A stretch of DNA of 64,000 nucleotides from Astropecten irregularis (Eukaryota > Echinodermata > Asteroidea > Paxillosida > Astropectinidae), in assembly GCA_963971285.1 (NCBI GenBank), contig OZ020245.1:22272983-22336982 (forward strand), read 5' to 3'. Within the stretch, counting starts at the first letter, position 1; the number at the start of each line of letters is the position of its first letter. Under the pieces are notes generated by a model. The model was not told the origin of the DNA. It saw only the letters and a program-made list of their open reading frames with translations, and did not search any database. Shown here in pieces: positions 6,301-63,909 of the stretch. Position numbers and translations under genes: made by a program.

Positions 6301-9300
6301 CAATACCTAAATATACGTTCGTGGTGTCCTCTTCAACATTATTAGCACCTTTGATTTTTGAGGAAAATTATGGAGTAAAAAACGGTACTGATGTGACTTT
6401 GCACGGATGCACAGAACGGCCGCAGACAAGAATGTAGTCTAGTTTCTGCTCTCATTGTGCAGACTTTCGATACGTTGGTTGTAGATACCAGACTAGCCAG
6501 ACCAGACAAAATGGCAGAAGAAAATTGTATTTTTTACTCTGAAGAAATGTTGCACACAATTTTTCTATCTAGGGATTTAAGGACTCTGGAACATTTGCTG
6601 AAAGTCAAAAATATCATTTTGGAACAGTAGAAGCTATTAAGTTGTTTTTATCTCCCTATATAGGTATTGTACCTAGTAGTAAACCATTACCTAGAATAGA
6701 ATATAGAGAAGCTCACTGTAGAATATGTACATTTGAAGTGATAGAGGCCGTGCAAGGAGCTAAACTCGAGGCCACAATTTGCAGTATTAGATTTTTGATC
6801 GAAAATGTAACTGAATTAGTACTTGAACCTGTTTATGTGAAGTACTTATGAAACATGACCATTGTGGCAGAAAAATCTTAACTTCAAATACCCAACTTTT
6901 TGTGTATATTTACTCTGACCTTACACAGATGGGCTGACAGTAGCTTGGTTTCACAATATCACAAGTTGTCTTTGTTTAAATAGCATAGTTTTGATACAAG
7001 TAGAGCCTAGTTTGATGCTAAATCCAGTCAGTTTCCCTTAGTGGTTGTTTGCTTATAACACTGTAGTTGATTATGATTTGAAGTAGGCCTACAAATTAAA
7101 CATAAATATGATTGTGTTTAATATTGGAGGTAAATATTGTGGTATTGGTTTTATTTGTGTGATCCTTTACATGCATATATACATTGATAATACATGTAAC
7201 ACTTTTGTAGCAGGTGTGTGTGAGAATTCAGATTGTTCTGATTTCAGATTTGTTTATTTATATTTTAATTCAAAATTTCAGCTTTTTTGTACTTCAGGTG
7301 CCAATTTCATAGAGCCATTTAAGCACAAAATTTGCTTAAGCATGAAAAGTCTTCCTAGATCAAACAACCAACCAAATTTTCATGTGATGTTTACTGCTTT
7401 TGACTGTTATTCGGCCATTGTTTGCTGAGCATAACATTCACTAGGAGTTTTGGCTGACGTACTGATTTTATTTACCAAGGTTTTTGGTGCTTAAGCAAAT
7501 TTTGGTGCTTAAGCAGCTCTATGAAATTGGCCCCTGCTCTGTACAGAACTATGGTATTGGCCCTTTTAAATTTCAGTTTTTTGTTTGGTGTTTTCAGATT
7601 TTGTGTGTGTGTGGCCACTCACATCCCTGTTGTAGAATGTAATGTACACACACAGGGTTCCAGCCGAAGAGAGTGCTGGATTTAGGCAGCTTCTGTATAA
7701 CAAAGCCCCTAGACGGAGATTGCCAATTTTTTTGTAAGAATACATGACAATGTTCCATCCATGGGGAATCTTTTTGACCCCTGGATGCAGTGGGTGAATC
7801 TTAGGCCGTGTACGAAACTGGCTTCCAGAGCTAGGGCTAGGTCTATTGTCTAGGTGTCTCTGCATATTTCCAATGCAGCGAAGACCTAGACCTAGCTCTG
7901 GACAACGGATTCGCGGATGCAGGCTTACTTTGTCTTTGTCTCTGTTGACTTCCACTCATGCCCATCCAGATCGAAGCAGGCTCTCCCCTGCCTAGCCCCA
8001 ATCTTCTACGAGGAAAGATTCTGGTCAAGAACAAAAAGAGGAAAGTTATCGAAGGAGGGAAGAAACGAACAGGTAAAGCAATCATGATTTAAAAATTAAT
8101 ATTCATATAATGTTCGCCCTCTGTCCTGAATATTGTTATTTCTTTTGTTTTGACAATTTCTTTTGCAGGAAACCTAAAGAATTCTTGTCTTTTATTTGTT
8201 GACAGATTTTTTAGACTTTGTTTTGTATTTACTGGGTTTTTTTCTCGGTATTGTTGAAGCAATCGTGTACATTTGATTTGTGTGTATTAATTTGGTTGAT
8301 CAATAACAATGTTTTTTTCAGAGGAAGTCTGTAGCATAATGTCGCTTTGTATGTTTTGCAATGAGGTGACTTGAACAAGTCTACTTTCAGACAGACGCTT
8401 GTATGATATGTCTTTGGTTCTCTATGGGTCCTGGTGAATACCCCTATTCCTGGATAAACCATATCATACTAACCCTTGTCCAGTTATTGTAGTCAGTATT
8501 AACATGAACAGAGTAGACTGCAATTCAGTGTCCCAGCTTTGGCCAACTCCATCTGAAATTTGAAAGATCTATATTTCATTTTATTTATTTAATCTATTCG
8601 TATATTTATTTGATAACCGACGGCAGAGATCTGCCAATTATAGGTATCATGAAGATTTGGTTAAAATTGTAAATATTTATTTACAAAATTTATAAAAACA
8701 AACAAACAAACAAACAAACATTCAACAATCATGCACTTTAACATTGGATCTAATAATCCAACAAAGACCAACAATCAACAAACAAATAGTCATACAAACA
8801 AATATGGTAAACATAAAAAAGTACAAATAATACAAATTATGGGCTATCTATTTATGACCTAGATGTTAAGTGTTTGAATAATACTTCTATAAATCTGTAT
8901 AATATGGAAGGAGTGTAATGTTGGTGCCCTAAGCACATCATATGCAAATAACATGATAATCGTACTACAGTGGAACGCCACTATAACGAACACCATCATA
9001 CCGAATATTTAGCTTTACCGGTCATCATCCTTGGCTCCCAATTTTTGTGTACAATGCATACCGAATATGGCTCTTTATAAATCACTATAACAAATGACCA
9101 CTATAACCATAGATATATAAAAAAAAACTAGATGGCTGCTCGTGGAGGCGGTGGCGCCATTTTAGTAGGGAGGGTGTTTCAAATCCGTTTTTTATGGAAC
9201 GCCGTAGCTATCTTCTTTAGATTGTTTGCTTCAGTAATTCCATCATTCAATTTTTGCCAAATTGAATGATGGAACTTGCGAAAAGAATGACAGAATGACA

Positions 9301-12300
9301 AACTGAATGATAAAATTGGCGACTGAAATTACAAAATGGCAAAAAAATGATGAAATTGGCGAATTAAAATGATGGAATTACAGATAAACAATCTAAGCCA
9401 CCGAATATAGCTACGGCGTTCCATCATGTTTCTTGGTGCATCGCGAACCGCATAACGCGTAACGACGCAGCTTGCGCTGTTTGTTATTAGCGCGTGAGCG
9501 TAGTGGGGAGTAAACATGGGTTTCGTCATGACGCATGCAACCCCCATTCGTTAATACACGGGTGCAACATCTACTTTTTTTTATATATCTATGACTATAA
9601 CAGACAATATCTGTGCATCCCACCATGTTCGTTATTGTGGCATTCCACTGTAAATACAATACAGTATGGGTAAGGTTCACTATGCTATCTGTACTGTATA
9701 TTCTTCAGTAATGCAGTCCATGCAGAAAAACAAAAGCCATTGTGTTTCCAGTGACCCCATAAACTCAATTCCTTTGTCATTCATGATGTTATTCATCAAT
9801 TTTGCTATTGTTGCATTGTTCTTATTAATTTTTTCAATGGTTACATGCCCTTTCTTTGTGTTGGCCTTACTTGCAACAGTATTAGGTTTGTTGGGGTGGG
9901 TGGGTTGGAGAGGGTGTGGCTTGCACAAGCCCACACCGTCCTTTCAAAATTGAAAAATTTAACAGTGTATCTAACAATCAGGAAAAATGGAACAGAAAAG
10001 GAAAAACAGATTGAGGTCCAGAATTGTACTGGTTCTATAGGGGAGATCTACTTCAGATCAAAATTCTGACTAAATGTTTTGAAAACACTATACATCTATC
10101 ATTCGGGCATCAGAGTTGTCAAAATATCCCGAAATTTCCCCGGAATTTTTAGTTTTCCTTGAATAATGATTGTTTTTATGAAGATTCTTCATGTTAATGG
10201 CTGGAGATTGATTGATTTTGTCATTATTATTATTATTATTATTTTACACCAGGCAATTTTGAGTACTTTCATGAACTACGTATTTCTAAATCCATCTGGA
10301 ATTGTACTGGTAGCAATAAAAAACAAACCACTTTTGTCATCCGTGGCACTGAGGGCAGGAAACCAGGGCATGGGTTCCATTCAATGCAAATGAGGATATA
10401 CACTGGCATTGTTTATTTCCACAAAATAATCATTTTCATGTTTATGTGAGATTCTCATTTGATTGTTTGTTTTTTCAGGTTAGGTTACGGAATATAGGAT
10501 GGTATATGTTTATGTACACATGTACTTGTATTATTGTGATCAAAAGTAGTTTTTGAAAATCCTTTTTTAGAGATTGAGTTCAAAACCAGCCATTTGCTGA
10601 TATAAGACTCACAAACCTTGTGTGTTGTAAGTGGAAGAATGTGTTTACTATCGTAACTAGTTTAAAGGTACAGTACATGATTGGTAACAATCCCAAACAT
10701 AAATGTTCACAGATTTACCTTTAACTTACAGGGTATGAAGATGGTGCTGGCAGAAACATACTGTTCAAATATTTCCGCCTTACATGGTGTATTTTATCCA
10801 GAAATTAGTAAAACAAAGACCATGTGTAAATCTTGTGTAAGGTCAAAACCATTCTGTATATTTTTTAGGAAAAATTTGAATCTGGTTTTCGCTATTTTTT
10901 CTTGACTCGGCTGTCTGATTGAGCTCAAATTTTCAAAGGTTTATTATTTCATGTACAAGTACATGATGGATTGGATAAAATGTGAGTGCTGTTCTGTGAC
11001 CTTTACCAATCATGTATTATACCTTTAAAACTGAGCCTGGTATCAGCATCACGAGATGTCTTGGAGAACAGAAATGAATGTGAAATGGTCAGAGCTCGGT
11101 AACATTACTGGTTGTCATGTAGAAAGGCTCGGTCGGCAGCAGTAGAATGTGAGAGGAGGTGGTTGGGGGGGAATGATTGATTCGTCTTCTAACAGGATAT
11201 GAGATTCAGTTGATCAAAAGAGGGAAAAATGGAGAATGGAAAGTGGTAGTTCGTGTCTGAAAATTTCAGTGGCTTAACCCACGGATTGCCGAGAGCTATG
11301 ATGTTATCTATCCCGCCAGCTATTAGAAAGATGACCTTTCTGATGTGCAAATCAATACATTTGATTTAAAGGAACTAATTCTAAAATTATGAAAAAATTC
11401 ACAAAAATAAAAAGCCTTCCCCGAAATCGGTTTGTTTACTTGATATAGGCCTATCAGTCTTCATTTGTAAGCACTCTTATCTACAAAGCAATTAATTATG
11501 TAAACATTTTACGAAGAAGGTTTTTTTGTGCTTTAATAAGTGTAGGTGTTTTTCTATTATTTGTTAGTCCTAAAGTGGCACCTAATGGTTGTTTTTCCTA
11601 CCAAAACTATGACCAGAAAATGTGATGTTTGTTGTGTTGTGTTTTTGACTTTGGGGACGGACTTTTTCTAGGTAGCAGGTTGTCGGCGAGTCGCAGCAGT
11701 TTCAGGGAGGAACAGCTTATCCGTCAGGTCCTACGTCGCGTCCAAAGCGAGACCACATCAAAGGAAACCTTGGAAAAAACGACCTTTCACAAGTGTGAGG
11801 GCAAGCTACACAAACAAGAGGCCGAAATATCATACCTCTAGTTGATTAATCAGTCATAAAAATTGGTTCTCTCATATTTTTAAAGTACACAATTTTTAAA
11901 CACATCGTGCTGCATATAATGCTTGCCGTCATCTCAGCCAGCGTCTAGCTTTTAGTTTGAGCATAAATCCATCATTATAGTTGGTCATCTCATCAGATTC
12001 GGACAAGATCTGTTCCATTCCCCTTTATAAAACAAGTAGAAAGCATTATATAACACCTTAGTAGATCCTTGTCATTTAATTGGAGGATTGTATGTCACGT
12101 GATATTTGATAAATAGACCAATTCATGGCTTACGTCACAACCGTTGAAATTTTTACCATCCACCGTGCATTTTTGGTGCCATCCGATTTGTACCATTGCA
12201 CGCCAGGGACTCTAATACGTGATTGGTCAAGCGGCGTTCCATTTATTTGTCACTGCGTGCGCGCGTACGCGTTGGTGTGCAACGCGCGTTACTGTTATAA

Positions 12301-15300: not shown

Positions 15301-18300
15301 TTCTTTTTTTTTTATAGCATCAATTTAACATAAAATGCCATGTCACCGTTTCCATGGAATCGCCGTGGAGATGATGATGGAAAGTAATCACACATTACAG
15401 CTACCCTGCAGAACGACCGTTGTAGCTCACTTTTTTTTTTCAGAAATGATGCCGGCTGATCATACTTTCTAGTGCTGTTACGTCAAATGTCACCTCCACT
15501 GATCAGGGGCGGTCACTGTATTTTGCAGTTGTGAAAGTTTATCAGTTAGGACGTGTGTTCATAGCTTATTTTAAAGGGGCACTCTATTCCGGGAATGGCT
15601 TATCCCTAAACTGCAAACAAAGGCATCTCCATGTTTTACTGGGTTGATACTGAGAACCCCTGATTGAAAGATTTCATCCATGGCCCTGCTGTTATTGATA
15701 ATTTCTCCTTCCCGAAACTCTTAATTTACAGGTCAGAAGAAAAATTCAAAAGAGGGCGAGCGTAAAGGTAAACAAGACATAACGTCTGTCAGCGATTGAT
15801 AACCAACTAGCAAAAAAAAAAGCAAAATGGCGGTAGCCGGGTCAACTAACAAATCTTTTAATCCTTCGAGGCAGTTTTGTCTTTACATTTTTTGTTGTAC
15901 TAACGAATCGTTTCTTTTTCTCGGATTAAAATCAGAAAGAAGACAAATTTGATTAGGAAGATCAAAGTGAAAATAATTTTGCTGTCCTGTCGCAGATGGT
16001 CTTGTGAATATTTGCAGCGATACAATTAATTTAACCGTCCTCAGCAAATGAAATAATTTTAGGGGTTTTTTTTCCTGGTTTTTTTTTTTCAAGTTAAAGG
16101 TAGTATCATACTTTGGTAGTATATACTGAAACAGAAATCTTCACAGATTTATTTATAACTTACAGGGTATGAAGATGGTGATGAAATGCTTCGAATGCTG
16201 TATTTATCCAGAAAGGAGTAAAACCAATCACCAAAAACAATTTCGATCTTTATTAATTTAAAAAATAATGGTGAAAAATGTTTTAAAATACTGCAGGAGT
16301 TTATCACTGTTTTCTCAAAGAGTCGGCACCGTATGGGACTGGGAATTTCACAGATGACTGTCACTGTATGTTCCTTGATATTTTGCCCATGAATCTGCAT
16401 TTCTTTGGCAAAAATCTAAGTATGATATTACCTTTATCCAAGGAAATTTGATTAAATAACCAAAACCTGGTCTGAAAGGAACAGAAAAAAAGAATGAACG
16501 ACAGTTTTGATGGCAGTTTGAGGTTGAGCCAAAATGCCACAAAGAGCATAAATTATACAGCTTCACCGGACACATAACCGTATCATTCCACCGACTTTCC
16601 TAAATGAACATGTGATAGGACTGATTTTTTAAGTGCTCGGTGCTTATTGTGCACCCCGCCATGAACAAACCCCAATTCTGAGAATCTTTCGCTTCCGTAT
16701 ATTTTCCCTCCGTGGAAATCCTGCTTAGCACACTGATTAGGCTTACATTGATTTCTTAGCACAGAATTTCAAGACTGCACATATTTTTTGTACCTTAATA
16801 GTCTCTCCTAAGACCTTTTCACACAACACCAAAAAAACCTCTCAACCATTGAGAATTTATCTCATGGGTCTGGACCTCGGTCAAAATCTCTCAAGGATTC
16901 ACCAGGGACGTCGGTCTCTCTCAAGCATTGGTGTCCTTTCACACGATGACACTTTAGTAAGATTTTGCAACCATGAGAGAATTTCTCAATGGGTGAGTTT
17001 TTTTAGAGTCTTATGAAAAGGCATCTAGTCTGGGTAAACAACAAAGAATAGACATTGCCAAGCAAATCCATTTGGTTATTTTCAAGCAGAGACGGAAGGT
17101 ATAGAAAGCTAGAAACTAATTTGTGATGCACAGCTTGTAAGGGAGGCAGGGATAACTAACCATGTTTAACACTCTAAAAAATATAAAAACCTTTTCAGAG
17201 GCCGTATGTAATCTGTAAATAATCTAATTACATATCCAGGAAGTGAAATATTCATAACTTACAGCTTGTAGTCTTTTCATTTTTGTCTTTTGTGAAAAGA
17301 AAGATATGTAATATTCAGTTTGCAGTGATATTGACAATAGCTAAGTCATGGGGACATTTTGTGTAGACTGTGTTTTTGTTGCTAAGGCTCTGTGTAATGG
17401 AGTCTGTAGAATCAAGATCAATTGACTGTGAAATCTTTAAGGAGGTCACAGATTCAACAACATAGAAGACTGGCAAGAATGAAGATGCATCATATATTTG
17501 AAATGTATCTTAACATTACAATTTCCCCATGTATGCTCCATAAACACTATGGGCCTGTTTGTTTAATGCAAAGGATCAGGGATTCTACTGATCTGGATCC
17601 CATGTTTGCATACCCTGCATAGGACGTGGATCCCCAAATTTGAGATCCTGTGCGTTAAACAGACAGGCCCAATATGTTTGGGTAGTACATGTAAGAAGGG
17701 ATTGTCTTATGGCAAAAAGAAATTTCAAGGGATGGTCATATTTGTCAGAGAGAATTTGTGATGGGAATGTGTTGGAGGGGAACAGGGATTGTGAAGCCAT
17801 CTCCTGGCTAAGTTCTACCCTTGTCATGTCTAAAACCTGCCCCGAGCAGTGTCATTGCTCCGGACGTCTCTCCCCACGCTATTGCGGAAATGAGTTTGCC
17901 TGCTCAAACCCTGCCCCAGGGTAGGCCATGATATCTCCCCAAATGCTCTTCAGGTTGCTAACGGACGACAGTATACTTCAAATCAGTATTTTAACCTTTT
18001 GATTTTATATCTTTGGCCGGGTCATCAGGGCGTGGCATCCTTGTCAGCACCCCCTCCTTTTCATCTAACTCCTCCCACAATGACGAGGAGGACTGGGAGT
18101 ACTCTTCAAACAGCAAGAAACCACCGGCCAGAAGCAGCAGTCTCCCAGCAAAAAGTTAGCGAGGCTTCTCTCTGCTCCCACAACAATTTTCTTTCCTATC
18201 GTGAATTGATCTCCGTTCACCGGTGTGCAACAATGGATCTTTCCCATGAAATATGCTAATTAGATACGTGCATACGCAAATGCATCACTGGTTGGCAAGC

Positions 18301-21300: not shown

Positions 21301-24300
21301 TTTTACATCAGTTGTTGACAACTTAACTGTTAATTAACATTGACATGATTGTAGAAATCACTGCATTATGACCCAATATTTTAACATGCTGTTCATGCTG
21401 TTAATTAGTACAATACATGCTATTATTTCACATGAGACATGCTTATCACGTCAAGCAATGAAATATATATCATAATTGTCATCAAATACTAGATCATCTA
21501 CAGTCCAAATGAAAACCAGTTTGAAACTTAGATCTCAAAAGTTGTGCTTTTAGCTATTTTGTTTTGTTTGTTTTTTATTTTGTTTTTATTTGATTTGTTT
21601 GTTTATTTATTATTTAGTATTGTTTTGTTTTGTTTTGTTTGTTTTTCATTTTGTTTTTATTTGTTTTGTGTTTATGATTTGTTTGAAAAAATCAATTCAA
21701 TAAATTGCAAAAAAAACAATTTGCATTGAATACAGAAAGGCTATGTCAGGATCTGAACATTCCAGTCCTATTTTCCAAATGTCTCCAGTCGACAAGCATT
21801 TTACAGCAGTTCCTTATTTCTCAGCAGTCAAAACGACCCCTTTTTTCTGGAAAAACTAAAGGTTGTCCAGAGGCAATGATTTAAAGCATAAATTGCGAGG
21901 TTCGCATTTTAACGCGAACTTCGCCTTTCAGTACAAACATGTTGCTATGACAACAGATTAATTCAGACTCTGTAGTATAGGAAAAAATGTCACCTGCTTT
22001 TCAGGTTTACATTTGTCAGATTTTGTGTGTGCTTTTGTTTTGTGTTTTGTGTTTTGTGTTTTTATTTTGTGTTTTGTGTTTTTATTTTGTGTTTTGTGTT
22101 TTGTGTTTTGTGTTTTTATTTTGGGTTTTGTGTTTTGTGTTTTGTATTTCTCTTGTCATGAAGAAGTTTGGATCCTTTTTGTGACAGGGGCCGGTCGAAG
22201 ATTAAACAGCCAATCATCTATAGACAGTGACGTGACTGTCAATGAGCCTGCCAAGATAGTGAGAGGAGGTATAAAATAATGATTGATTTCCATGGCAACC
22301 TCTCATCAACTAATTATGAAATCTTTGAAATGTTATTGACTATTGGTGATTCATGTTTGACTAAAAAAATATACAATCCACAAACTGAGAACAGAAGATT
22401 TGCTGCATTCTGATGTATCAGAACATTTTACATTCAATTATACCGGAAACTATGACAAGAAATTAATGAAATCAACAAATAACCACTAGGGAAACTGACT
22501 GAATTGATTTTAAGGCATTAAAAAGAAATTTCGAACCAGCGGGATTCGAACCATTGACCCCTGGAATACCGTATACCCGGTCTCTACCAACTGAGCTATC
22601 CCGCCCTATGTCAGTGTCCCTAATACAGGTAGTCAATTATCTTTGTTCGTTTGCCAGTCAGAAACCACTCACATACCGCTATATCCCAAGGATCGTTTAA
22701 GAAACATGCAGCATTAGCAATGCTCAAAGAGGATGCAGCTTTTTAATCAATATAATCATCAAATAACCACAAGGAAAACTGCCTTGTCTTAAAGAACTCT
22801 GCAACTCTACATCGGACAGGGTATACATTTTTTAATACCAAACTGAAGTGCAACATCTATTTCCGATCTGTTTATACAATTACTTTTTGAATTCATTTTA
22901 TCAGAATGAATATAGTGCACAAGGATTACCAAAAGTTTGTCCTTTTGTTTTGATATGTAGTTTGTGTGCTTGAAATGTTCTATTATGTGCCCCTCAGATT
23001 TTTCTTGTCTTCTTATTGTCAGGGGCATTTCCAGTTTGTTATCTAAATAATCAACAGAATAATTGTAACTATTCCTTTCTCAATTATGACATTGAAGTAA
23101 TGAGCATGGGTTAGCCGTGCCATGCCTCTTAAATTGGCTCGGAAGTTCTTTTATAGAATTGTTGTAGAAGCCATTAGAGGTACATTGTACCTACCAGTAA
23201 AACGGTTGTGTGTTCGTCAGCGTTAAGTACAATCAGTAGTTTGAATAACCTCACCTGAGACTTGTACTAACCAAACGTTCTTTCCCTCCAGAATGTAGCA
23301 CCCACACCGAGTGTACTCCAAGCTAATGCTTTTTGTTATTGATACGTTATATCGCACACTAGTCTCCCGAAAGGCGAGCAAGCGCTCCCAGCTCCTACAG
23401 ATTGACGAGAGGGACAATGACCCCTTCGAGGAGCCCATCGAAGGTAAACAAAAAGACGCCCGCAAATGAAAGGCTCAATTTTTTTCTCGTTTCAACTCTC
23501 ATCATCTGCCAGCAAGTTCGCTCACTCCATCACAGCAGCTAGGAATGATCATCTCAGTCGACTCAATTTTAATTTTTTGTTTGTTTTTTTTTTTGCTTGT
23601 GCATTTTCGTCATATCAACGGACATAGCTGACTGTCAGGGGCCAATTTCACGACACTGCTTAGCACAAAAATTTGCTAAGCATGGCATTTCTGGGGTTAA
23701 CAACCCCAGGGTTAACAACCAAATTTCCATGTGTTGTGTATCACTGGTGATTGTTATTTGGCTGTTGTTCACTTACCATGAATATCAAATGGAATGTTTA
23801 ATGGTGGTTTATTGTATTGGGCAAGCCATTTTTGTGCTAAGCAAATTTTTGTGCTTAGCAGCTCTATGAAATTGGCTCCAGTTCACTATAATTTTTTTTG
23901 TATGTGGGAGGGAGGGGAATGGATTCAATTTTGATCTGTACACACTGTAATTTACAGTGTCATCATGAGCCCTGCATGTCCTTGTCATGCAAATTGCTGT
24001 GTGGGTGTGTTTTGCGTAGTATCTCACTTACGGCAACAATTTCAAGGCTCAATGCAGATAATATCAAATTTATGGCGAAGGATTTCTTTTTTCACTGCGC
24101 AATATGTGACGATTCAGCTATGTCCAAAATACTGATATGAAGAGGCACATGTATGTTTGTGTATACATGTGCCTCTTTATTCTAATAATTCTAACCATAA
24201 TGCTTTAATTCAGATCAATTCATAATTTTGTTTCAATTTTACAAAATTCAGCCATTTTGTTGTCATTTTTCCAGCATTGATTTGTTTTGTTTTCATGATG

Positions 24301-30300: not shown

Positions 30301-33300
30301 CATTGTGCAACATATTGCCCATCTTTGTTCAACAATGTGCAACATTGCCCAACACTGCAACATTGCTCAATGTTGGAAACCATTATGCAAAATTGCTCAA
30401 CATTTGAAACCATTGTCCAACATTGTCCAACATTGTCCAACATTGTGCGCCACAATACAACATTGTGAAACACTGTGCAGCATCGGAAAACTTCCTGCAC
30501 TTAGCAATATGCTTCTTGTCTTTATAGACATGTCATACCAACATTTCTGTGAAGCTGCTAAATGTGTAGTTATATTCCTATCAAATGTCACCTCTGTTCA
30601 TATGAATCATTTGTCTTGAGAAAAAGAGGCATGACAAGATTTACATTGTACCAAATGTATTATAAATCCGTTTTCAAACAACATAGCTTGATTGTTTTTT
30701 ATTCTGTACATCTTCATGCGCAGTCTGAAGCAGATCTTACAGAAAACACAGGTCATTTACCTGACCTCTTTATGTCAAACTGTATGGTAAAAATTGTTAT
30801 ATGTAATTTATCTAATAACCATTGAGCATTTGACTCAGCTGTATGTGATCTTTCATGTAAAATATCACATATGAATACCCACGCATTTATTAAACATGTT
30901 TTTTCACCTGAAATTTCATAAAGCCACCGCCTACACACAATAAGCACTCCATTTGCGTTCACGAATGAGAATTTGAAAAGGATAAAAATACAATAGAACA
31001 GGAGCTGTGGAGATTGATTTCAAAATAACCCATCGTTGTTTAAAATGTCAAGGCTTTCTTGCTTTCCCTAATCTTGTATAGTGTCGGCCAAACGTCGTGA
31101 GAGCCAGATCAGCAAAAGATCCAGCGTTGACAATACAAACGGGGAAGGTAAATGAGTTAGGGCACAAATTAAATCGCCGGCGCTGAAACGCTGAAGTTTG
31201 GGTCTTTGGGGGTCAACTTTCAATCATGTTCTCCTAATATCATCTTGTTTTTGTTAGTTGCATTAATTGCTGTATAAGCTCCACCAGTGAAGTAGATTGC
31301 TAATTTCTTATTTTGTGAAGTGGAAATGTCAGAATATGAGAAGAAAGATGCCAAAAATACTAAATGAAGCATCATCCATTCTCCATATGATACAGTATTC
31401 AACATATCAGCACAAAGAAGAGATGAAGTTATTATAATCATCAAATAACCACAAGGGAAACTGACTGAATTTAAAGTCATTGAAAAGTGAACAAAAAACA
31501 ATATAGACTAGATGAAGTGTTAAAAAAAAGAAATGATGATAGATATCTGGTGGTTATAAAACCAAGGATTATTCAGGATTGCATAGAGCACGGTTGCTTT
31601 TAAAGGTGCTATCATACTTTGGTGGGGAAACTAAAACAGAAATCTTCACAGATTTACTTGTAACTTACAGGGTATAAAGATGGTGCTGCTAGAAACATAC
31701 TGTTAACATTTGTCTGCCTGAAATGCTGTGTTTATCGAGAAAAGAGGAAAACCAATGACTAAAACGATTTTTGATATTGTAAAGATGAAAAATAACGGTG
31801 AAAATATTTAAGAAATACTGAGGGTGTTTTTCACCGTTTTCTCAAAAAGTGGCTACCGTATGGGCCTGAAAATTTCACAGATGACTGTTACTATATCTTC
31901 TTTGATTTTTTTGCTTATGAATCTGCATTTCTTTGACAAAAACCAAAGTATGATATTAACTTTAAGTCTGAAGAAACAAGCTTAGCAACCATGCATCTCC
32001 ACTATCACAGGCCGGTACCGTGCTCTGCTCCTGGGTGGAGTGAATCAATTAGCGACATAGTGTCTTGCTCAAGGGCATAAGTGGAACGATCTCCCGTGGC
32101 TGGACACGAATCCAAAACCTGTGGGATTCCCGCAAATGTCTTGAATTTGACAAACAAGATTTTGTCTCTGATGGTACGCAACAGTATGGTACTCAGTGTC
32201 AGCCTAACACCATATTGCTTGGTAGACAAGTGAAAATGCTGTGAATGTCCACATTTGGATTATGATATCTGAACGTTTATGTGCTGGATAAAAATATCAC
32301 ATCGTCACTGGGAATTCTTTGTCTCATTTTGGTGATGATTTTATCACTCCAACATTATTATATTCATTTCAGTTTTGTTTGAAGCATTATGAGGGCTGTA
32401 GCTAAGGCACATTTGAGAAGCCATTAGTAGAAGGTATCCTAGCCTTATAGTCTAAAACTGGCTGCAAATTAGGCCTAGGATCTTTCGCAGCCTGTTTAGT
32501 TAGACACAATTCAAATTATTTTGGTTGGGTTTTGATTCATTATCAAGAAGAAATAAAGCGTTCAAAGTGGTTGGCCGTGGATACAAGTCTAAATGGCACA
32601 ATCTATAGACAAGTTTCAAATAGGTAGGGACAGAATTGGGCGTATCCTAAATTCCCTCCACAGAGCTGTGTTTGTATTTTGAGGCTTACTCCAGGTAAAA
32701 TCCTTGGGAGGATATTGGTTCAGACAAAGGTCTAACTTGAACCCATCCATGGACTAGACTAGATACCCTGTTTGTACTAATTGAAGCCAGCCCAAAGGGC
32801 TGACATTTATCACTGGCTAACATTAGCCTCACGGTGGAATATCCAACTATGGAAAGTTCTTGAAGGCTATAATACTCCCCTATCTGACCTACTGGCTTTC
32901 CCGTTGGTCAATTAACAACAGAACAAAACATTTCTTTCTTTCAGAGGGGCTACGAGTGACCAGAAGCCGGCGTGTTGGTCAGTTCCAATACCCGGCCATT
33001 GATGGCCCAGTAGGGCAAGGTAACCAAGTTGCCCATGTTTCTCATTGGTGACAGGGAATTCCCACTGGATCACCATTTTTCAATACGCACCAGGCTTTTT
33101 TTCCATAGATGTATATTCTGTGCTTGGGATTTTCAGGAAGTGTTCTCTGTTGGTAATCAAATATCCACAGCATAATTGAAAAATTGATGTCCATATGATA
33201 TGACGAGATATGCTTTTCATCCAAAAATGCCCTTCCCAACATGGTAGCTGGAAGGGCCATGGACACGTTCATTTTCTTCAAAAGTTCATTTCTTTATGTT

Positions 33301-36300
33301 GTACCCTTGTCCGTGTTATGATTTGATTTACATTACTATATAAGTGGACATAGAATGTACATCTTGTACAAGCATCCCTTGTGTGGGATATCTAGAACAT
33401 TCCACAGTTAGATAAGCATAGATCACATTGGAATGATTTCTTCCCTAATATTTGTTTTCACATGGGCATGTGGTAATCATGAGTTTTCCAATTGGTTTCC
33501 ATTAAAAGAAAAATTGTCTCTCATTTTGGCTAGGAACCTTCATGAATCCACCAAAGTTCAACCTCAGCACACTATTACAGGCTGAAGCCACGCTGCATAA
33601 TCATGGGTTCCCTGTATGGGTGAATAGCGCTCCGCACTAATGACGTTACAAAATCCCCGGAACTCAGACAAACATTGACTCACACACGTAGTGTACATGC
33701 ACGCGCACAACCACCCACGTGTGCAATGTTTGTCTGAGTTCCGGTGCTATTTTTAGCGCAAGTGCGGAGCGCTATTATGAAGGATTTGGTGCAGATTTGT
33801 AGTCATCAGTCTGTAGTTTATTCGTAGTCTAGAGCGGCCTTTTCACACGACGCCAAACAAAATTCTCAACCATTGAGAAATTCTCTCATGGGTGTGGACC
33901 TCAGTCAAAATCTCTCAAGGATTCACCAGGGACGTCGGCCACTCTCAAGCATTGTTGTCCTTTCACACAATGACACTTTTGTAAGATATTGCAACCATGA
34001 GAGAATTTCTCAATGGTTGAGAGGTTTTTTTTAGCGTTGTGTGAAAAAGCCGTAGGGCTGCTGTCAATTTTTTACCACGATTTGACTTTTATTCCGACCA
34101 GACCAGATCAGCAGTCACGGTGGCACCATTGTCCACTCCCCACCCACTCCCCTTTATCCCCCCTCCCCCACTCCCTCCAAAAGGTTTATGTGGCATCAAC
34201 AGCTTGTCATCTTAATCATATGAAACGTGTTTGAAGAATCACATACTTTCTGAGTTTTTGCACCCTATGGTGAAGTCATATTACTTTTCCAATGGGTTTG
34301 TTGGAGGGGGATGTAGCATTGTAGAATTAATACACCATGTGTTCTTTTCTGAAGATATTGTTTTATTGGCAGCTGTGGCGGTGGTTTGTTTTGTTCATAC
34401 ACAAAAACGAACACACAAAATGAATGGTATATAGTTGTATTGATACTTGTCACAACGATCGGTCAGGAATAGCAATGCATTATGGGATTGTTGTAATTGG
34501 GAAGAAGTGACAGGCCGTGTCCCAATTCTCTGGCTGTGACCGCAAATAACACACCAGTCTATGGCAATGGCTGCAGTCACTGGCTAGTAGCTGCCATAGG
34601 TACATGCGTATTGCGTTATTTGCAGCCGCAGCCAGAGAATTGAGACACGGCCATATTTTCAATTTTATTATGGAAGATTGCATATATGCACAACACCAAA
34701 CTTTAGTTAAAGATTTCAATTTAACCAACCCCCTTGCAGTGTGGTTATAGATATTATCGTAAATAGATAAGCAACATACAGAAAATACAGACAGTCAAAA
34801 ATAATGTGGATGGTAATGACATTTCGAACGGTCTGATTTCCCATTGATGTATGTTCCTTCTTACTGCGTAAAATGTTTAAACATTAGAAATGAAAGCACC
34901 TCATACTTTTGACTTTTTATGCCATTTGAAAACTTTATTCTGTGCGGCATTATTGATTTGATTTTATTGTTTTTGTTTGTTTTTTAATGCTGGCTTTTCC
35001 GATTGAATGTTTCTTTTGTGTCATCTCCCCACTTCAGAAACAGAATCCTGGGCCGAGACCTCAGTAATTCTAAACAAACAAGACAAGTTTTATTTTCTCC
35101 TCATGTTGCACAGGAATATTGTTTGCTAACATTAACCACTAACTACTGTATCTGCTGCACTTCTGCCAAACTTTGATGTGAGGGGGAAAATAAATGGTCC
35201 AACTTTCAAATTTGAAAACCCTTTTCAAGGATGGCTATTTCATGGGATTTTTGCTTCGGAATGCATTGTTCCCATAATGAAGGATTCTTTGCTTGTTGAG
35301 TTTGTGCTGATTTCCAGTGCGAGCAAGAATTCTCCGGTCAACAACGTTATGAAAATGGGCCCCAATCAAGCACCAGATATAATTGGTAACCTGCACACCA
35401 TGCTGTTGATGTAAGATCACTGTGGATGAAGGCTTAGGCCTATACAGGAACCGGTTGCAGATGGAATCGCTCGTCATCTCGATCCTAATAGGCCTACCTG
35501 TTTGTTTGATCATGTATTTTCTGTTCACATGGATTAAGTTTCCGATGATTTGCCTTGTTTCAGCGCCCCAGTTTAACAAGATCAAAGACAGTCCATCCTC
35601 GAGTCCCAAGCCGCTCAAAAAAAACATCCAAGGATGAAAGCGCTAATGACAAAGGTATATCGGTAATCACCTTGCTCTGCAACCATAACCATTCATTGAC
35701 GCATTGTTTGATGCATTGCTTCTTATTTACTGAAATCTTATTACTTTTGGAATTAAAAAAAGCCGAACAAATTTATTTTGTCAAATTCGTCTTTTACAGC
35801 AATGTATATCAGCTGTAACAAGTCTGGCTTCGTAAAGGCCCATACATTGATTATTACATACAAAAATCCTTGTGGCTCCATTTCAATTACAATATCTTGA
35901 AGCAGTCACAGTGTGCAATACTGGTACAACAGGCAGACAGAAAGACAGAAAATAAAACGTGATCAAATGATAAAGACTCTTTCAATACTCTAAGCATACC
36001 TGTCCCTGGTACAAGCCTGCATCTTGGACTGTGTTTTCCTTCTTGCTAAGGTGTTCATACGTGTTGCTCATGTATTTGTTCCATATCCTCGTCTCTTTCT
36101 CCTCGTCGATGTTGAAGAGCTTCCGCATGGCCTTCTCTATTGTTTCTGTAGTTAGATAGGACGGGAAAACAGGAACTTTTCTTAGTTTGTGTGGAGATGG
36201 AGTGCCAAAGCTGAATGGGTTTCAGAGTGTCCAGTGTCCACTATTAAAGATCTGGTGTAAAATCATGCAGATTAAAAGTACATGTGCATGTGCAAGCCCA

Positions 36301-39300
36301 GCCATGAACATTAAGGTCATGATGGTGCTTGCGTCACTGTAACAAGTATGTTTGACATCAATTCCACCTCTTCACTAGGCAGTTACACATGTATGCCGAT
36401 ACTGTGACGGAAGAAGTGTCTACGATGGTGGTTTCAAGATAGTCCTGCATGTCTGTTTACTCCAGATACTCTGACAGAAGGGCATAGTACTTTATGAAAA
36501 TATGGCCTCACTTTATTTACAAACATAACAAAACCAATTAACTCCTTCACATCAATACACGTACGGTATCCCCTCCCCTTTGTAATCTAGCAACAACACA
36601 GGATCCCATGGCTATAACTTAAGACCCTTTGTTCCTTGAAAGTTCTCACAGAAATTTGCACAGCATTGATTGAAAATAATTACTCATGATACGAACACCA
36701 ATCGAGGACCAAGACCCAACATAGCCAAAACCAAGCACGGATATAAATTGAGACCGTGCAAGTGTCTTCATCAGCTTGATAAAGGCTAGCAGTCATTTTA
36801 GCTTATTACCGTTTTCCACACTGAACGACCCTTTTCCTAGTATTACCAACTTAAAAGCATAGTGCAGGTACCTGGCATTCATATGCAATGTCCAATGAGT
36901 GACCTTAGAAGCATTCAATGTTTTCTCTACACTGCCTAGAATATAGCATTTCTAGCAATCATGTTTATATTATTGTCATTTCACAAATGAACTGTCAAAT
37001 TTTACTTATTTGTACTCATGTCTGTATAAACAAACCTTATAGATTTGAATGACTGCCCAGGAATCAATAAAATGCAAATTTGACAGATCTCATGATAAGG
37101 ATTATTAACTAAGCATAAAAACTATTAAAAAAACGACTAAGAAAAGTTAGGCATCTGTACTCTGTCAGCTTGTGCATAGAGCTAGCTAATTAGCACGCAC
37201 AAACAGTATTTTAATCTGATCATGAAGAAACATATGGTCCATATGTCATGAACTTTTACAGGCCGTGGAAATAAAAATAGTACCGTGAGGGAACATTCAG
37301 AGATTTATGACCATCGGGTGGCTGTATTTGTTGCTGTGAGAGGCAGTGCGGTGTGACATATATAATCGCTACGCTCAGAGGAAGATACATACCAGTCATA
37401 CCTCAAAGGTCAATCAGTCACTAACACACATGGATAATCAGTTAACCGTCTGCCACAAAATGTACAAAATAATCATTCTCCCAAGAAAGCTGACGTCAGT
37501 TTTGTGGATGCAATTCATCTCAAATGATGTGAAAAAAAAGATGGAAAAAAAACTAGCTGTGACGACAACAATTGATTCAGATTCAACATGTTCATGTGCA
37601 TGTGTACTTGGTTTAACGTTTGTTTTCTCATCTTGGGAAAATGAATGTTGTTCACATTCACTTATGTAATTCATCATTATTCAGAAAACATATGATTAAT
37701 GCCAATTGTGCACTTCATGCGAATGTGGAGCAAGCTTTTGCCGCCACGCACAATTACATGTGCGACCGATTTGCATAGTTTGAACGCATGTAATTGCGCA
37801 TATTTGTCTATTATATGTAGAAACCGAATGACGTCACCGTCAAGCCAACGTAACCGGACCCACCTTTAATCACTCAGTCTGTANNNNNNNNNNNNNNNNN
37901 NNNNNNNNNNNNNNNNNNNNNNNNNNNNNNNNNNNNNNNNNNNNNNNNNNNNNNNNNNNNNNNNNNNNNNNNNNNNNNNNNNNNNNNNNNNNNNNNNNNN
38001 NNNNNNNNNNNNNNNNNNNNNNNNNNNNNNNNNNNNNNNNNNNNNNNNNNNNNNNNNNNNNNNNNNNNNNNNNNNNNNNNNNNGCAGCGGCTCTCTCCTA
38101 GGTCACAACGACTGTTTTTATTCTCCCTCCACAAAAATCAAACACTTTCGATCTTGCACTATGATCTGCTATTGAAAATGGGTTTGATGGTTGCTGGCTA
38201 TCAAAGGTGGCAGTGCATGCTGGCTTCTCTTTATGTTGTAGCAGCATCTTAAATTGCAACACATCTCGTCAACTGCATGTCAAGATGATTAGCTTTCCAA
38301 ATCATCATTTTAATTATTTTTTAAGATATGTTACATGTATAATGTGTCAATTTGAGTATAAAGGTAATTATCATACTTTGGTTTGTGTCAAAGAAATGAA
38401 AATTGTTGAGCAAAAATATCAAGGAAGATACTGTAACGGTCATCTGTGAAATTTTCAGTCCCATACGGTGCCCAGTTTTTGAGAAAACAGTGAAAATGCT
38501 CACAGTATTTCTTAAATCTTCTCACCATTATTTTTTATCTTTAAAAGATCATAATTAATTTTAGTCATTGGTTTAACCCTTTTTGGATAAATACAGCATT
38601 TCAAGCAAAAACATTTTAACAGTATGTTTCTACCATAACCATCTTCATACCCTGAAAGTTAAAAACTTAACTTAGAACATTTCTAGACACAGATTATACC
38701 TTGTGAGTTATATGTAAATTTGTGATGATTTCTGCTTCAGTATGCTACCAAAGTATGATAGTACCTTTAACTTGACACGAGCTGTAGGAATCTGACTATT
38801 AATGGTTTCTTAATGTTTTGAGTGAAGAATTAGAACAATAATTTCTGAATTTTCCACCACAGAATCTTCAACTCCCGTCAGTCAAGACACTCCAACCAGG
38901 AGAGGTAATGAATGATTCCACCTCCGCCTCCATTCGCATCCTGTTGCCCCGCCCCCAATCCATCAACCACTTTCTTCATCTTTCTTTTTTAACCCATCAT
39001 CACCTCCATAGGTGGAGGGGACATTTACTAACGTACACTTGATGACACCTTTCTTGCAGTTCATTTCATGCACATCCAAATGAGCAACTAACACCATATG
39101 GAGCATCACCATCTACAAGATTGTTTCATCTCTCTGTCCTACTTATCTCCTGGTTTTTTTTTTTTTACACAAACAAAGACATTTTCAACAGGGTTTGGGT
39201 ATATAGTTTCGTTACAATTACGTGAAAAAAATTTTAAGAAAGAAAACCAGTTGAAGCTTTACCATTCATTTGATGCATGTTACCTCTAAGAACTGATGAT

Positions 39301-42300
39301 TACTTGTTACTTTTTTATGATATTGGTTCTTTCACTTTTCTTTAGAGTTTCGTCTTTTTTTTCCAGCTAAATGTTCTCCTCATATAAAAAAATATGAGCA
39401 TTAAGTTCATGATTAATTAAAACAAATGCACGTGTACTAAATCATCATGTCATGTCGTGTGTACTAAATCAATTTTTAATTTTTGCTGTGTGCTATTCCC
39501 TTCATTGTACTAACGATGATTTGCTTCCTGATTTTGTATTATACATGTGAAGGGTTAACACTCAAGTATGATACATTTCATGCTTAGAAGTAGGAGAGCC
39601 AAGCAGTCAGGGGCCAATTTCATGGAGCTGTTAAGCACAAAAAAATTGCTAAGCACGAAACGTCTCTCTCAATAAAACAAACCACCATTAAGAATTCCAT
39701 TTAATATTCATGGTCAGCGAACAACAGCAAAAGAATAATCACAAGTGACACACAACACATGGAAATTTGGTTGTTAATCCTGTTTTTGTTAAAGAAAAAT
39801 TTCATGGTTAGCAAATTGTGCTTGATTTAGCTCTATGAAAATTGGCCCCTGATGTTAGCAGGATAATTCTCAAAGTCTTTGATCTCAAAGATCCTGCTAT
39901 GATTGAAGCAACATGCCTTCCAATCAATGGATTATTATTTCCAGTCGTTTAATCTGGCTAATGGGGCAGTTTGCAGCAGCTAATCGGTTACAGTAAAGCA
40001 AATTTTGCATCATTAGCTTGGACACAAACGATGTGTATTAAAGTTAATGACAAATCATTAGAATGTCGTCGCTGAGTCGCTCCTCTTGTAGGAGACAAAG
40101 TAGAATTTTCAAAATCATTCAGACGAACGATCTTTGGAAAAGACACTAAACCATTATTTGCTTGAAAATTAAACCCAGCATCTGATGAACCAAGATTTCC
40201 CATGGGGACTGTTTGCACTGTTTACGAACTGTTGAGTCCATTTTCTGTCTCAAACTCAAAAAAAATTTTTTTGGATGCCTTGCAAATCCTTAATGCTCCC
40301 TTTAAGTCTCTCCTCAGTTACTCTAATTACCTCCGGGTGTTTTTGACCAAAAACCGTCTTGAATCCACCCACAACCAACATCATGATGTGCCCCTGCTGC
40401 CCTTACAAGACCCAGATAAGTCTTGACACCCGAGACTCGACCAACCTGTTTCCTAGCTGATGGATTTTTTCGCAGTGGTTTGGGGTTTGAGATGTGAGAG
40501 TGTCTACAGGTTGTCTCTGCGGAGGAATAAACTCTCAAATAGGTTAACAGCTACATCTTAACCGTGTTGCAAAGAGGATTGCTGCTAGGAGGGAACGCTT
40601 AACGAGATAGAAGATGAGAAACAGAGATGCTCCCTGCACAGAAGGATGGATGGACATCTCGGAGGATGCGGTTGCTAGGGAGAGATTGCATCTTGTAGGC
40701 AATTAATCAACATCTGGTCAAAAGCAGCTACCAGAGCAACTCTTTTTGCTGTTTAAATCATTGTATGTGCATTGTGCAATATAATGTATTTTCTCCTTGT
40801 GTACAGCAAATCAGAAAATTAATCTCTCACCATTTAGTTGATTACATACAAGGAGGAAGGAAAATGGTTTTTACGTCCATGGTCCATATACAGTAACTGT
40901 AAAATGTATAATTTGTAATCAAGATATTCAAAGACTTATTATTTTGTAATTGCTGGGTTCTATAGACCTTTAATTCAATGTGCATCCATCCTGCATTCGA
41001 AGCAGTAAAATCAAACCGAGGCTTGGATTAAAAAAAGTCTGGTACCCGTTTTCTTTTTAGAATTGGTGTTTATATTTTCCAAAGGGTATACAAGGAAGGT
41101 GACAAAATGAATGTCCCGTTAATAAGGCCTTTTGCGTCATTCTAAAATTATTTACTGTACTGTGTTTTTGCCAATTTTTTGGGCATGTTTGTTTAACGCA
41201 CAGGATCACAGATTCTACTGATCCGGATCCCATTTTAGCGTACTCTGTATAGGACGTGGATCCGCAAATCTGGGATCCTGTGCGTTAAATAAACTGATCC
41301 TTTGATGAATGTTTAATTACAAAATATTCAAAATATTCAAGTCCAAAGTCTTACTGGTCAAATAAGAATGGGGAAGTTTTATTTGTTTGGCCTTTTGGTG
41401 GTGTGAGGTTAAGGACCCTGCCAGACTGCCCACCCGTTTATACAGAAGCCGACCTCTTAAAGAGACTAGTTACTTTTTCTTTCCGTAGTCCGGCGCCGTG
41501 CTAGTCACACCATGTCCACTCTTTCCTCCGTAAGTCAGGGAGAGGAGTCCAAAATTTCCGAAGGTAAAAGAAAACCAGAAAAAAGGACGGGATGATATAT
41601 CGACTTGCTTTATTATATCACCTTAATTTACTCCCTCCAGCTAACATCAGAAACTTGCGGTCATCGGGCACTTTCAGAATCTCCAGAAATTTGTTAATGG
41701 TATCGTCTTTGATTCTTTGGGGGCACGGGGTCTCAAGCCGTAGTTGTTTGTCACATTTTTGCTAAATGTCGGGCCCCCTGAAGCCGTCAGCAACATCCTT
41801 TGCTATTATTGTGTCACCTTCTTGAATGTCGAAAGGTCGTCGGTTTTTTTTTTTTTTATGAGTTTTTGCGGTTTCATGAATCTGACGCAAGTTTCTGGTG
41901 TTTAGCTGCGACAGGATGACTTAGTTGCTTCTCACCCACACAGCTTCCAAGAAGCCATTTTGTTTTATTTGGCTATATATATATATACCAGTTTTATATT
42001 TCAAAAAAACCACATACACATTTTGTTTATTACTGCTATTTCTGTAATACACGCCGGCTTTGTCTTGTTTTTTTATATAATGGAATCCATTTGCAGTCTT
42101 TTGCAAGATGCCTAGCGTTTGTTGCTTTATTGTGAAATTAATGTAATCTTTGCAGCTTGATTTGTTGAAATGTATGTTTTTATTCATCAGAGGCATATAT
42201 TAGCCTTATGGAAATGAATAGGCCTATCACACGTTTTCTAGTTTTGCCATTCGCTTCTTGCATAGGTTTGGATATCTTCTCATACACGCGGATCACCTTT

Positions 42301-45300: not shown

Positions 45301-48300
45301 AAAACAAATCACCATTAAAGATTCCATTTGATATTCATGGTCAGTAAACAACAGCCAAAGAACAATCACAAGCGATACATAACACATGGAAATTTGGTTG
45401 GGTATTTTTTATTAAGACAGAAATTTCATGGTTAGCAAATTTTTGTGCTAAGCAGGGTTGTGAAATTGGCCCCTGGTCATCATAGAAGATTGGTTGTCAT
45501 TACATTACTTTTGCTGACTGCCATTTTCAGTACATGCTTAATAATGCTGCTCTCCAGTTATTAAACACCGGAGAATGCACTCAACTCGTGACATATGGAT
45601 TTGCGTCGTGAAACACAGGGCTGATTAGCATGTATTTAATAGCAAACATCTGATAAGTGGGGTTTTCCCTTTTTTTTCCTTCTTTTTTTGTTATTTTGTT
45701 TTTTTTATCATTTTTATATTTTTTCACATTCATATTCAATCTGTGATCCCACAGGTCGAAGTCACTTATCACAATAGGGAGTAGACTCGTGAAATGCTAA
45801 AAGTATCGAATTGTTTCCATGCAGATGTTTCGTCTGTCAGTTATCCGTCTGTCTGTCTGTTCACGGCTGCAGGGCCTTCCGTTTCTCTCTTTGTATGTGC
45901 GCACCCAATCCAACGTGTATTATAACTGCCATCCGTAGATCTGTATTATGATATCGCACTCGATCCGCGGGGCACGCCGCCGGACTTTGATCGGGCGGTA
46001 ATGGACGCCGTATAGGCCGATTAGAGATTCATAGATTCATCATGATCATGAGTTGACTGCACGCTGGGACATCTGCTTGCAAAAGGGGGATTATAGGGAG
46101 TGTGTGTGAGCTCCTTGTGAAGAATTTTTATTACGATCGATTCCCCTGTACTGTGCCGTCCTCTGTCCTACACAAACACGACCTGTTGGAAAACAAACCT
46201 CTAAGGGAGATTCCTAATCCATACATGCTTCCCAAATGTAATGGAAAGTCTGAAACGCAGTCCATTATTTTGCTTCCTGCATTCTGAAGTACCATACCCT
46301 TTTTCCCATGGGGGAATATTGCTGCCGCAATTTTAAAGCAAACATTTTTGTGAAAGTCTTTCCAAGACCTCTCCTGGGAGCTCTGCACAGTCCCTTGTCT
46401 TTAACCATGATCTGTTACAAACTCAATCTGCACATCAGGGACTCCATTTTGTTTTTTTGCTCCTGGGTGGAGAGAAGTAATTTCCAATCCGGAAACAGTC
46501 ATTTGTTGAACTTTCATATTTTCAAAGCCCTGGGCTGGATTTCACAAAGCGCTAAGATTAATCTTAGGATGAATTGTCAATATCACCATAAGCGATTTGT
46601 ATTGTGACATCATCACTCGTTGCTTTTATGAATTCAAACTTAAGATCAATCCTAGTGCTTCGTGAAATCGGCCCCTGGACTTCCTTTATCAATACCCAGC
46701 AACTGATGATCTCTTGGACAGGGTGGGGCTGAGTTGATGTTAAGTGGTCAGGCAAGCAATCCTCCTGAACTAGTTTAGACAGTGTCATTTCTTCTCTTAG
46801 ATTCCTTCAATTTGAACTAATCGACCTTATTAACCCAGTCAACTTTGAAAGTCACAGGTAACCTTGAGGAAAGACTAGACTGGTTTTCATGATGCATTTT
46901 GCTTTTCCTGTCTCCAATTCACTGAATAAGATTCCAAATGTTTCCTCTGACCCTCGCACACCTATTAACTCTCTGTGACATTTTTCACAACCTCCTCCTT
47001 CATATTATGTAGCCTCCACACCAGCCATGAAGACGCTCTCCACAGACAGCGAGAAGAGCCAGGACAGCAACACCAATAGAAGCATGGCCGAGACACTGGA
47101 TGAGGTAGAGGAGGAGAGCGACAGCGACGATGATGAGGAGAATATGAGTAAGGAGGAGGCTCAGCGCCACCAGATGGAGAAGAGAGAGAAGGTGGGTCAG
47201 AGAGTCTCTAATGCCCTCAATCTTTGAAGATGCTAGGGCCCTTTTCCAAACTTTGGCACTGGCTCCGGCTCTGGTTCCGGCTCCAGCTCCAGCTCTGGCT
47301 CCAGCTCCAGCTCCAGTTCCAGCTATGGGTCAGGCTCCGGCTCAGGCTCTGTCAACTACAACCTGTATTTTCAGCAATGCAGGATGTCAGAGGTGGAGCC
47401 TGAGCTTAAGCCTCAGTTTCGTGAATGCCCTAAGTTTCAAAAAGGCCCATAGATAACAATTTGAAGCCCAATATATACTTCCTGTGAATCAGCTCCCCCT
47501 AGTGTTGGAGTACTCGTACTCCTACTCCTACTCCTACTCGAGTACAACTCAAGTACATGCAAATACTCGGCCTGTGCTCGATAAAAAGTACTTGAAAATA
47601 TATTTACTTGGCCCGTACTCGATTCCATGTACTCGAATTTTGGGAGTACTCGCTCATTAAGTGCAAATTTAATTTTTGTTAATACAAATTTCACGGTTGA
47701 TTATGTTGGTGAGTTCCGATAAATTATACAATGGGAGTATGAAGATCATCAGTAGTTTAGTATCAAATGGAGTAACCAGCACAGTGCCATTTGCAAGGTT
47801 TGTAAAACAAGATTTCTAAGAAGAGTGGCACAACTAACCTCCGACTTCTTTGTGAAACAAACTGCATTTTTTTACACTGTGCGTTGGTACTGTGCATGTA
47901 TTCGGACTCAGACTTTGGTACTCGGACTCGGCCCTGTACTCAATCTTGAATGTACTCGTACTCGATACTTAGGACTTGGACTCGCCAGCAATGTACTCGG
48001 ACTCGGCCCAGTACTCAGACCATGAAGTACTCGGAGTACCCTGTACTCAGAATTGAGGACTCGACTCTAACACTGCTCCCCCGTCCCCCCTCCCCCTTCT
48101 TCCTCATACTGACATCGTGGCCTCGAAAACATAAAGGCTTCTTCAAGTGTATTCCGAACAACTGCTGAGGTGCCTGAATCGTATATTTACATATTAATAA
48201 GACAATCATTATTCACATGGCAATTTTGCACAAATAGGCAAGGAAGGAATCACGGCTTACTTGAGGGAGGAAATTTCAAATTCGAATCACATTTTGTACT

Positions 48301-63697: not shown

Positions 63698-63909
63698 GTA
63701 CTAACCATCCCATAATTTGCAAAAAGATAACTTTTTTTTTTTAAAGAAATATGCATTATTTTCTTTTTGCTTATAATATTTTGTATTACTGTTTGGTTAA
63801 CTATTGGCAAAACAAAACTCAGCCCTGGTTTAGATAACAACTGTTTTTGAATCTAAAAGGGGGAATAGGTGTCCTGAGAAACTCTTAAATGTTAACTTCT
63901 GGGCCTCTC

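Follow-up and report, generated by a model that had tools for sequence, protein, structure and literature searches.

The window analysed here is a stretch of 64,000 nucleotides (nt) from Astropecten irregularis (assembly GCA_963971285.1, contig OZ020245.1, positions 22,272,983 to 22,336,982 of the forward strand), and it carries a PLCβ gene with an unusual series of short coding segments inside one intron. Sixteen exons placed by hand between 220 and 58455 form one open frame; the exon near 55812 has an uncertain border. The gene starts outside the window, and 58455 is the end of its modelled part. Pfam recognizes both the X half (PF00388, E 3.3e-63) and the Y half (PF00387, E 2.5e-42) on the model, and its first 572 residues match solved PLCβ chains across both catalytic halves with E of about 1e-200. 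Squid PLC (3qr1, 3qr0) and human PLCB3 match about equally, and PLCβ structures in the PDB outscore those of PLC epsilon, gamma, zeta and delta. Pfam and PDB matches alike indicate that both catalytic halves typical of a PLCβ are present, and the assignment of the gene to PLCβ is well supported at the sequence level.

The end of the X box is separated from the exon for the acidic stretch of the X-Y linker by a phase-1 intron of 38,940 nt (8073-47012). The remaining 14 introns of the model span 525 to 3,208 nt, and phases 0, 1 and 2 are all used among them. An earlier interpretation based on the letters of this stretch (the sequence-only reading) had placed eleven cassette exons in the long intron, all beginning and ending in phase 1 and divisible by three in length, one of them (segment 9) once a single A is removed. 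All eleven segments were found, bordered by AG and GT at the proposed positions or close to them (Table 1). Ten of them, 36 to 126 nt long, are open and symmetric in phase 1-1 as proposed. The exception is segment 9, which is 91 nt long as assembled and whose phase-1 frame meets stops past the run of eight A at 35617. The figure of 287 added residues given in that reading holds if segment 9 counts as 30, while the ten in-frame segments alone add 257. The further proposal that any combination of segments keeps the frame is incorrect for the borders as drawn. Segment 1 (11672-11794) ends in T, and its direct junction with segment 8 (beginning with AG) creates TAG, that with segment 10 (beginning with AA) TAA. 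According to our count, such junction stops remove 6 of the 1024 combinations that are possible with the ten in-frame segments; the number changes if segment 1 is bordered differently. Any combination that includes segment 9 as assembled loses the frame.

Table 1. Segments of the linker intron and the constitutive exons that delimit it. Ranks are those among plus-strand candidates; "frame-blind" denotes rescoring by composition.
Feature	Position	Strand	Length (nt)	Residues	Remarks
Constitutive exon, X box end and linker start	7970-8072	+			ends in phase 1; in frame, PLCβ match
Segment 1	11672-11794	+	123	41	border placement uncertain; both scans favour 11679-11792
Segment 2	15732-15767	+	36	12	exact in frame-blind scan, rank 17
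Segment 3	18029-18154	+	126	42	weak donor GTTAGC; rank 2 with coding score; frame-blind, overlapping 18029-18222 at rank 11
Segment 4	22188-22268	+	81	27	exact in frame-blind scan, rank 13
Segment 5	23363-23443	+	81	27	RKAS motif; rank 1 with coding score; frame-blind, 23374-23443 preferred, rank 6
Segment 6	28168-28233	+	66	22	RRES motif; exact in frame-blind scan, rank 5
Segment 7	31082-31147	+	66	22	RRES motif; exact in frame-blind scan, rank 7
Segment 8	32945-33019	+	75	25	exact in frame-blind scan, rank 4
Segment 9	35564-35654	+	91		frame-breaking as assembled, A run at 35617; frame-blind, overlapping 35572-35654, rank 16
Segment 10	38863-38904	+	42	14	exact in frame-blind scan, rank 2
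Segment 11	41489-41563	+	75	25	RRAS motif; exact in frame-blind scan, rank 3
Constitutive acidic linker exon	47013-47191	+			enters in phase 1; frame, PLCβ match, phase

All eleven segments have a G+C content (0.42-0.60) above that of both 150-nt flanks (0.27-0.47), a feature seen likewise in 12 of the 16 constitutive exons. No Pfam family was matched by the ten in-frame segments.

To compare the segments with chance, the intron was scanned with a splice matrix composed of generic metazoan frequencies and the constitutive sites of this gene, and coding content was scored by codon use of the constitutive exons. The ten in-frame segments occupy ranks 1-9 and 11 among the phase-1,1 candidates on the plus strand. 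Candidates scoring at least 10 number seven on the plus strand and one on the minus strand, against a mean of 0.13 and a maximum of 1 in 30 first-order Markov sequences. At a threshold of at least 5 there are ten on the plus strand, nine of which are the proposed segments, and one on the minus strand (Markov mean 1.0, maximum 4). In order to remove the choice of frame, candidates were rescored with composition only. In this frame-blind scan the eleven segments take plus-strand ranks 1-7, 11, 13, 16 and 17, with the region of segment 1 on top and a best score of 15.4. Two of the top seven have other borders than those proposed (segments 1 and 5). Each of the seven segments recovered exactly is a multiple of three in length (chance 4.6e-4) and reads open in phase 1. 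When all nine phase pairs were allowed, eight of nine plus-strand candidates scoring at least 10 were proposed segments, and six of the nine were in phase 1,1; two segments scored best as 2,2. We conclude that at least eight of the segments are very probably exons, and the sequence gives good support to the view that most of the array consists of genuine, phase-matched exons of the PLCβ X-Y linker. Additional candidates inside the array lie at 34112-34183 or 34102-34183 and at 37379-37408, followed by lower scorers.

Several observations weigh against this view. Strand asymmetry is reduced in the less constrained scans: at a score of at least 10, the nine-phase-pair scan gives 9 plus versus 4 minus candidates and the frame-blind scan 7 versus 3, and the two top minus-strand candidates of the latter (24.1 and 17.0) exceed every candidate of the plus strand. 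The higher of the two, 36000-36145, is a USP4/15-like exon, and therefore the scorer does find exons; the other, 45960-46072, is closed by stops in each of the three frames and represents either a false candidate or some non-coding feature. Random loci, 13 of 10 kilobases (kb) each, unannotated and possibly containing real exons, average 6.6 phase-1,1 candidates scoring at least 10 per 39-kb strand, equal to the array. Three of these loci, with G+C of 0.445-0.486, contribute 36 of the 44 candidates; the ten loci with G+C of at most 0.42 yield 8 per 200 kb of strand, or about 1.6 per 39 kb. Individual segments are also imperfect. Apart from the broken frame of segment 9, splice sites are poor in two (a weak acceptor in segment 1 and the weak GTTAGC donor in segment 3), and segment 10 has a better coding score in another frame. 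Counts of splicing-factor motifs (seven motifs on two sides) gave nominal signals that rest on few runs. TGTGT is enriched upstream of segments (20 versus 7.3, P 0.002), with 13 of the 20 contributed by one repeat in front of segment 4, and a run of seven T downstream (22 versus 5.7, reached in 0 of 500), with contributions from four of the eleven segments. ACTAAY downstream has P 0.048, and P is at least 0.05 for all other counts.

A long T/G-rich repeat (21543-22174) extends to just 5' of the acceptor of segment 4 and may affect splicing of this segment.

Such imperfections bear on an alternative in which only a core set of about five to seven segments is live (5, 6, 7, 11, 8, 4 and 3), the others being chance or decaying look-alikes of exons. 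The weak or ambiguous borders of segment 1, the broken frame of segment 9, the very short length of segments 2 and 10, and a random-locus expectation above zero are in its favour, but segment 10 and the region of segment 1 rank second and first in the frame-blind scan. We regard this alternative as rather improbable.

With regard to how the segments are used, their symmetry, shortness and weak acceptors suggest that optional inclusion is likely. They are shorter than constitutive exons (Mann-Whitney P 0.0095), and their acceptors are weaker than constitutive ones (P 0.025, with splice scores from a generic matrix). Their donors, which are no weaker than constitutive donors (P 0.53), count against optional use. 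The material is the sequence of one genome, from which splicing in vivo is inferred. The segments could instead be ordinary constitutive exons, so that a linker that is simply long and flexible, reaching about 340 residues when all ten in-frame segments are counted, would be encoded in small pieces. Donors of constitutive strength and the exon-like G+C contrast of all eleven segments fit this possibility, and such length is tolerated by flexible linkers. It is difficult to reconcile with symmetry of ten out of eleven segments in a single phase, which would hardly be expected if an old linker had been divided randomly, in a gene whose other introns use all three phases, and with the weaker acceptors; moreover, segment 9 breaks the frame and so is not obligatory if the assembly is right. 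Constitutive use of the segments is thus considered unlikely, though the least unlikely of the alternatives. We somewhat favour the interpretation that some ten short, symmetric exons, probably optional cassettes, are arrayed in the PLCβ linker intron.

Segment 9 may have a role of its own as a poison exon, the inclusion of which would shift the frame and lower the enzyme level, while the other ten segments would be in-frame cassettes. Its 91 nt and the stops entered upon inclusion agree with this, but a run of eight A is a likely site of a length error or variant. We find this role doubtful; it is compatible with a cassette array formed by the other ten.

The window contains a single run of N, at 37884-38083, between segments 9 and 10. 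A piece of a USP4/15-like gene lies on the minus strand at 35847-37883 and ends at the last base before this gap. The 48 residues encoded by its exon at 36000-36145 are identical to those of a locus on another contig (C1:28410891), from which the exon differs in 5 of 144 nt, all in third positions. Over their whole length, with the coding parts counted in, the two aligned stretches of the piece and the C1 locus show 79% and 86% identity; both a misplaced haplotype copy and a duplication would fit. The piece leaves the segments themselves untouched, but it renders the distance from segment 9 to segment 10 unreliable. A misjoin around the gap, with an array built partly of foreign pieces, would be suggested by the position of this piece against the gap and its resemblance to a copy or haplotype of the C1 locus. 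Nevertheless, the gap is the sole one in the window, and exons on both of its sides share one PLCβ frame and one strand. An artefact of assembly as the source of the array is therefore held to be very improbable.

We have also addressed the question of the origin of the segments. Mutually exclusive copies of the Dscam type were rejected, as there is no strong similarity among the eleven segments: the best of 55 DNA pairs is 6/7 (z 4.8), and the best of 55 protein pairs is 6/8 (z 5.4, over 13 residues). Exonization of a transposable element was rejected as well, since none of the 14 families of direct repeats of at least 40 nt in the intron covers a segment. A search of the genome (475.7 Mb in 168 contigs) revealed no second copy of the eight segments long enough for it; segments 2 and 10 are too short to recover their own sites, and segment 9 was left out. 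With the ten segments used as a protein query, all 11 matches fell at this locus.

Seven PLC genes in the genome have both catalytic halves, and the distance between nearest Pfam matches to X and Y is largest in the one studied here (47.9 kb). By our own subtraction, it amounts to 28.1, 15.1, 10.7, 6.0, 3.6 and 3.2 kb in the other six; two more X matches, on contigs C21 and C22, are without a Y match. The gene in which X and Y lie 28.1 kb apart (C8:7353197-7381291) is located on the same contig as the array and, judged by eye, is presumably PLCβ4-like. A large interval may therefore predate the array gene, and the PLCβ4-like gene might have linker exons of its own. The protein query of ten segments, eight of which are long enough for detection, gave no match there at E of 1 or below.

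Insertion of the segments would change both the length and the charge of the linker. Without them it has 83 residues (the Pfam match to X runs to residue 179, and that to Y begins at 263), and with the ten in-frame segments 340. Read from the alignment, the X-Y interval is about 120 residues in human PLCB3, longer than the empty linker, and about 41 in squid PLC. The sequence-only reading had supposed a much shorter linker in vertebrate PLCβ1; the structures matched by the model include no PLCβ1 chain. The counted constitutive parts of the linker carry net charges of +7 (15 residues) and -12 (72 residues). Each segment contributes 12-42 residues, often rich in Ser, Lys or Arg, and several segments are basic: six of the ten in-frame ones are positive, three neutral and one negative, adding up to +11.

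Basophilic kinase motifs are frequent in the segments. With overlapping starts included, seven of the eleven segments hold 10 instances of the pattern [RK][RK]x(1,2)[ST] (shuffle mean 3.0; 10 is reached in 0 of 5000 shuffles), and the strict form R[RK]xS is present four times (shuffle mean 0.69, P 0.0046). The value of these counts is lowered by the choice of patterns, as four were tried and picked after the segments had been seen, and by the inclusion of only 20 residues of segment 9.

The X-Y linker has been described as negative, autoinhibitory and displaced by the membrane, while PLCζ, with a positive linker, is constitutively active (PMC10296670). The linker is also presented as a regulatory switch, and removal of the PLCζ linker results in lower activity (PMC12195575). 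Taking into account this known role, we infer that the segments tune autoinhibition. They would be inserted after the basic first part of the linker and ahead of the acidic stretch, and since in-frame segments add residues and a charge of +11, their inclusion would make the lid longer and less negative. Such a linker could cover the active site less tightly as a lid or come into contact with acidic membrane. Phosphorylation at the basophilic motifs by kinases of the protein kinase A (PKA) kind might then restore negative charge, and kinases would in this way gain a splice-dependent handle on PLCβ activity. The segments are presumed to be disordered. This mechanism of charge and phosphorylation is a tentative proposal, with the chances somewhat against it. 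A full combinatorial splice code, in which about a thousand combinations would differ in the length and charge of the linker and in its kinase sites, appears less probable still and is best viewed as speculative.

The X-Y linker is a brake common to these enzymes. If Gq signalling is controlled by splicing in this gene, the control would act within the catalytic region and not at the C terminus. Under a combinatorial code, exon choice in each cell type would set basal activity and cross-talk with cyclic AMP and PKA, or with another basophilic kinase. A natural library of inserts would also allow effects of linker length, charge and phosphorylation on PLCβ activity to be tested directly.

A variant of a related kind is found in PLCδ4, where an insert occurs between X and Y. 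This is a single insert in a PLCδ, in contrast to an array in a PLCβ. The passages on PLCδ4 in PMC12195575 do not mention an X-Y insert.

The organization most similar to that of the array is known from CD44, in which about ten consecutive exons (v1-v10) of one protein region are optional and the shortest form uses none (PMC10572085). In the PLCβ intron, too, many consecutive segments occupy one interval, with ten out of eleven symmetric in phase 1-1. Human v1 cannot be used, owing to an in-frame stop (same source), and segment 9 offers a possible parallel. The CD44 exons encode the extracellular stem of a receptor, whereas those proposed here belong to the autoinhibitory linker of an enzyme, and optional use has been shown for CD44 while for PLCβ it is likely from the sequence. 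Mammalian PLCβ genes (β1a/b, β2a/b, β4) are alternatively spliced as well. In the sections of PMC12195575 available, the variants of β1 and β2 differ at the C terminus, unlike the X-Y location here, and those of β4 lack an internal segment or have differing exons, with no linker array mentioned. Tissue-specific human exons frequently encode disordered segments with many modification sites (PMC3437557), but they form a general class and not a single array. Arrays of multiple cassettes are thus known from CD44, and in the literature searched, comprising open-licence papers available in part, there is no report of one placed in the autoinhibitory linker of a PLCβ.

Other introns of the model were inspected for overlooked cassettes. 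In the 14 remaining introns, same-phase candidates scoring at least 5 were 5093-5173, 47237-47392 and 47493-47552, and all were rejected; the first stretch recurs elsewhere, and the other two are Ser/Gly- or Ser/Tyr-rich runs. The Ser/Gly-rich open run at 47237-47392 directly follows the exon of the acidic linker; the intron that holds it is phase 0, with which the run is compatible, and it is perhaps only a simple repeat. Introns of the gene also contain five Rfam tRNA matches (2545-2615, 3454-3526, 4969-5041, 49608-49680 and 56328-56400), perhaps tRNA-derived repeats, judging by similar flanking text. The constitutive exon 53440-53604 is followed by GC instead of GT at its 3' border (AAGAAG/GCAAGA), which is likely a GC donor. 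Beyond the modelled exons, Lys/Glu-rich open stretches near 62560-63700 are candidates for the C-terminal coiled-coil region of PLCβ.

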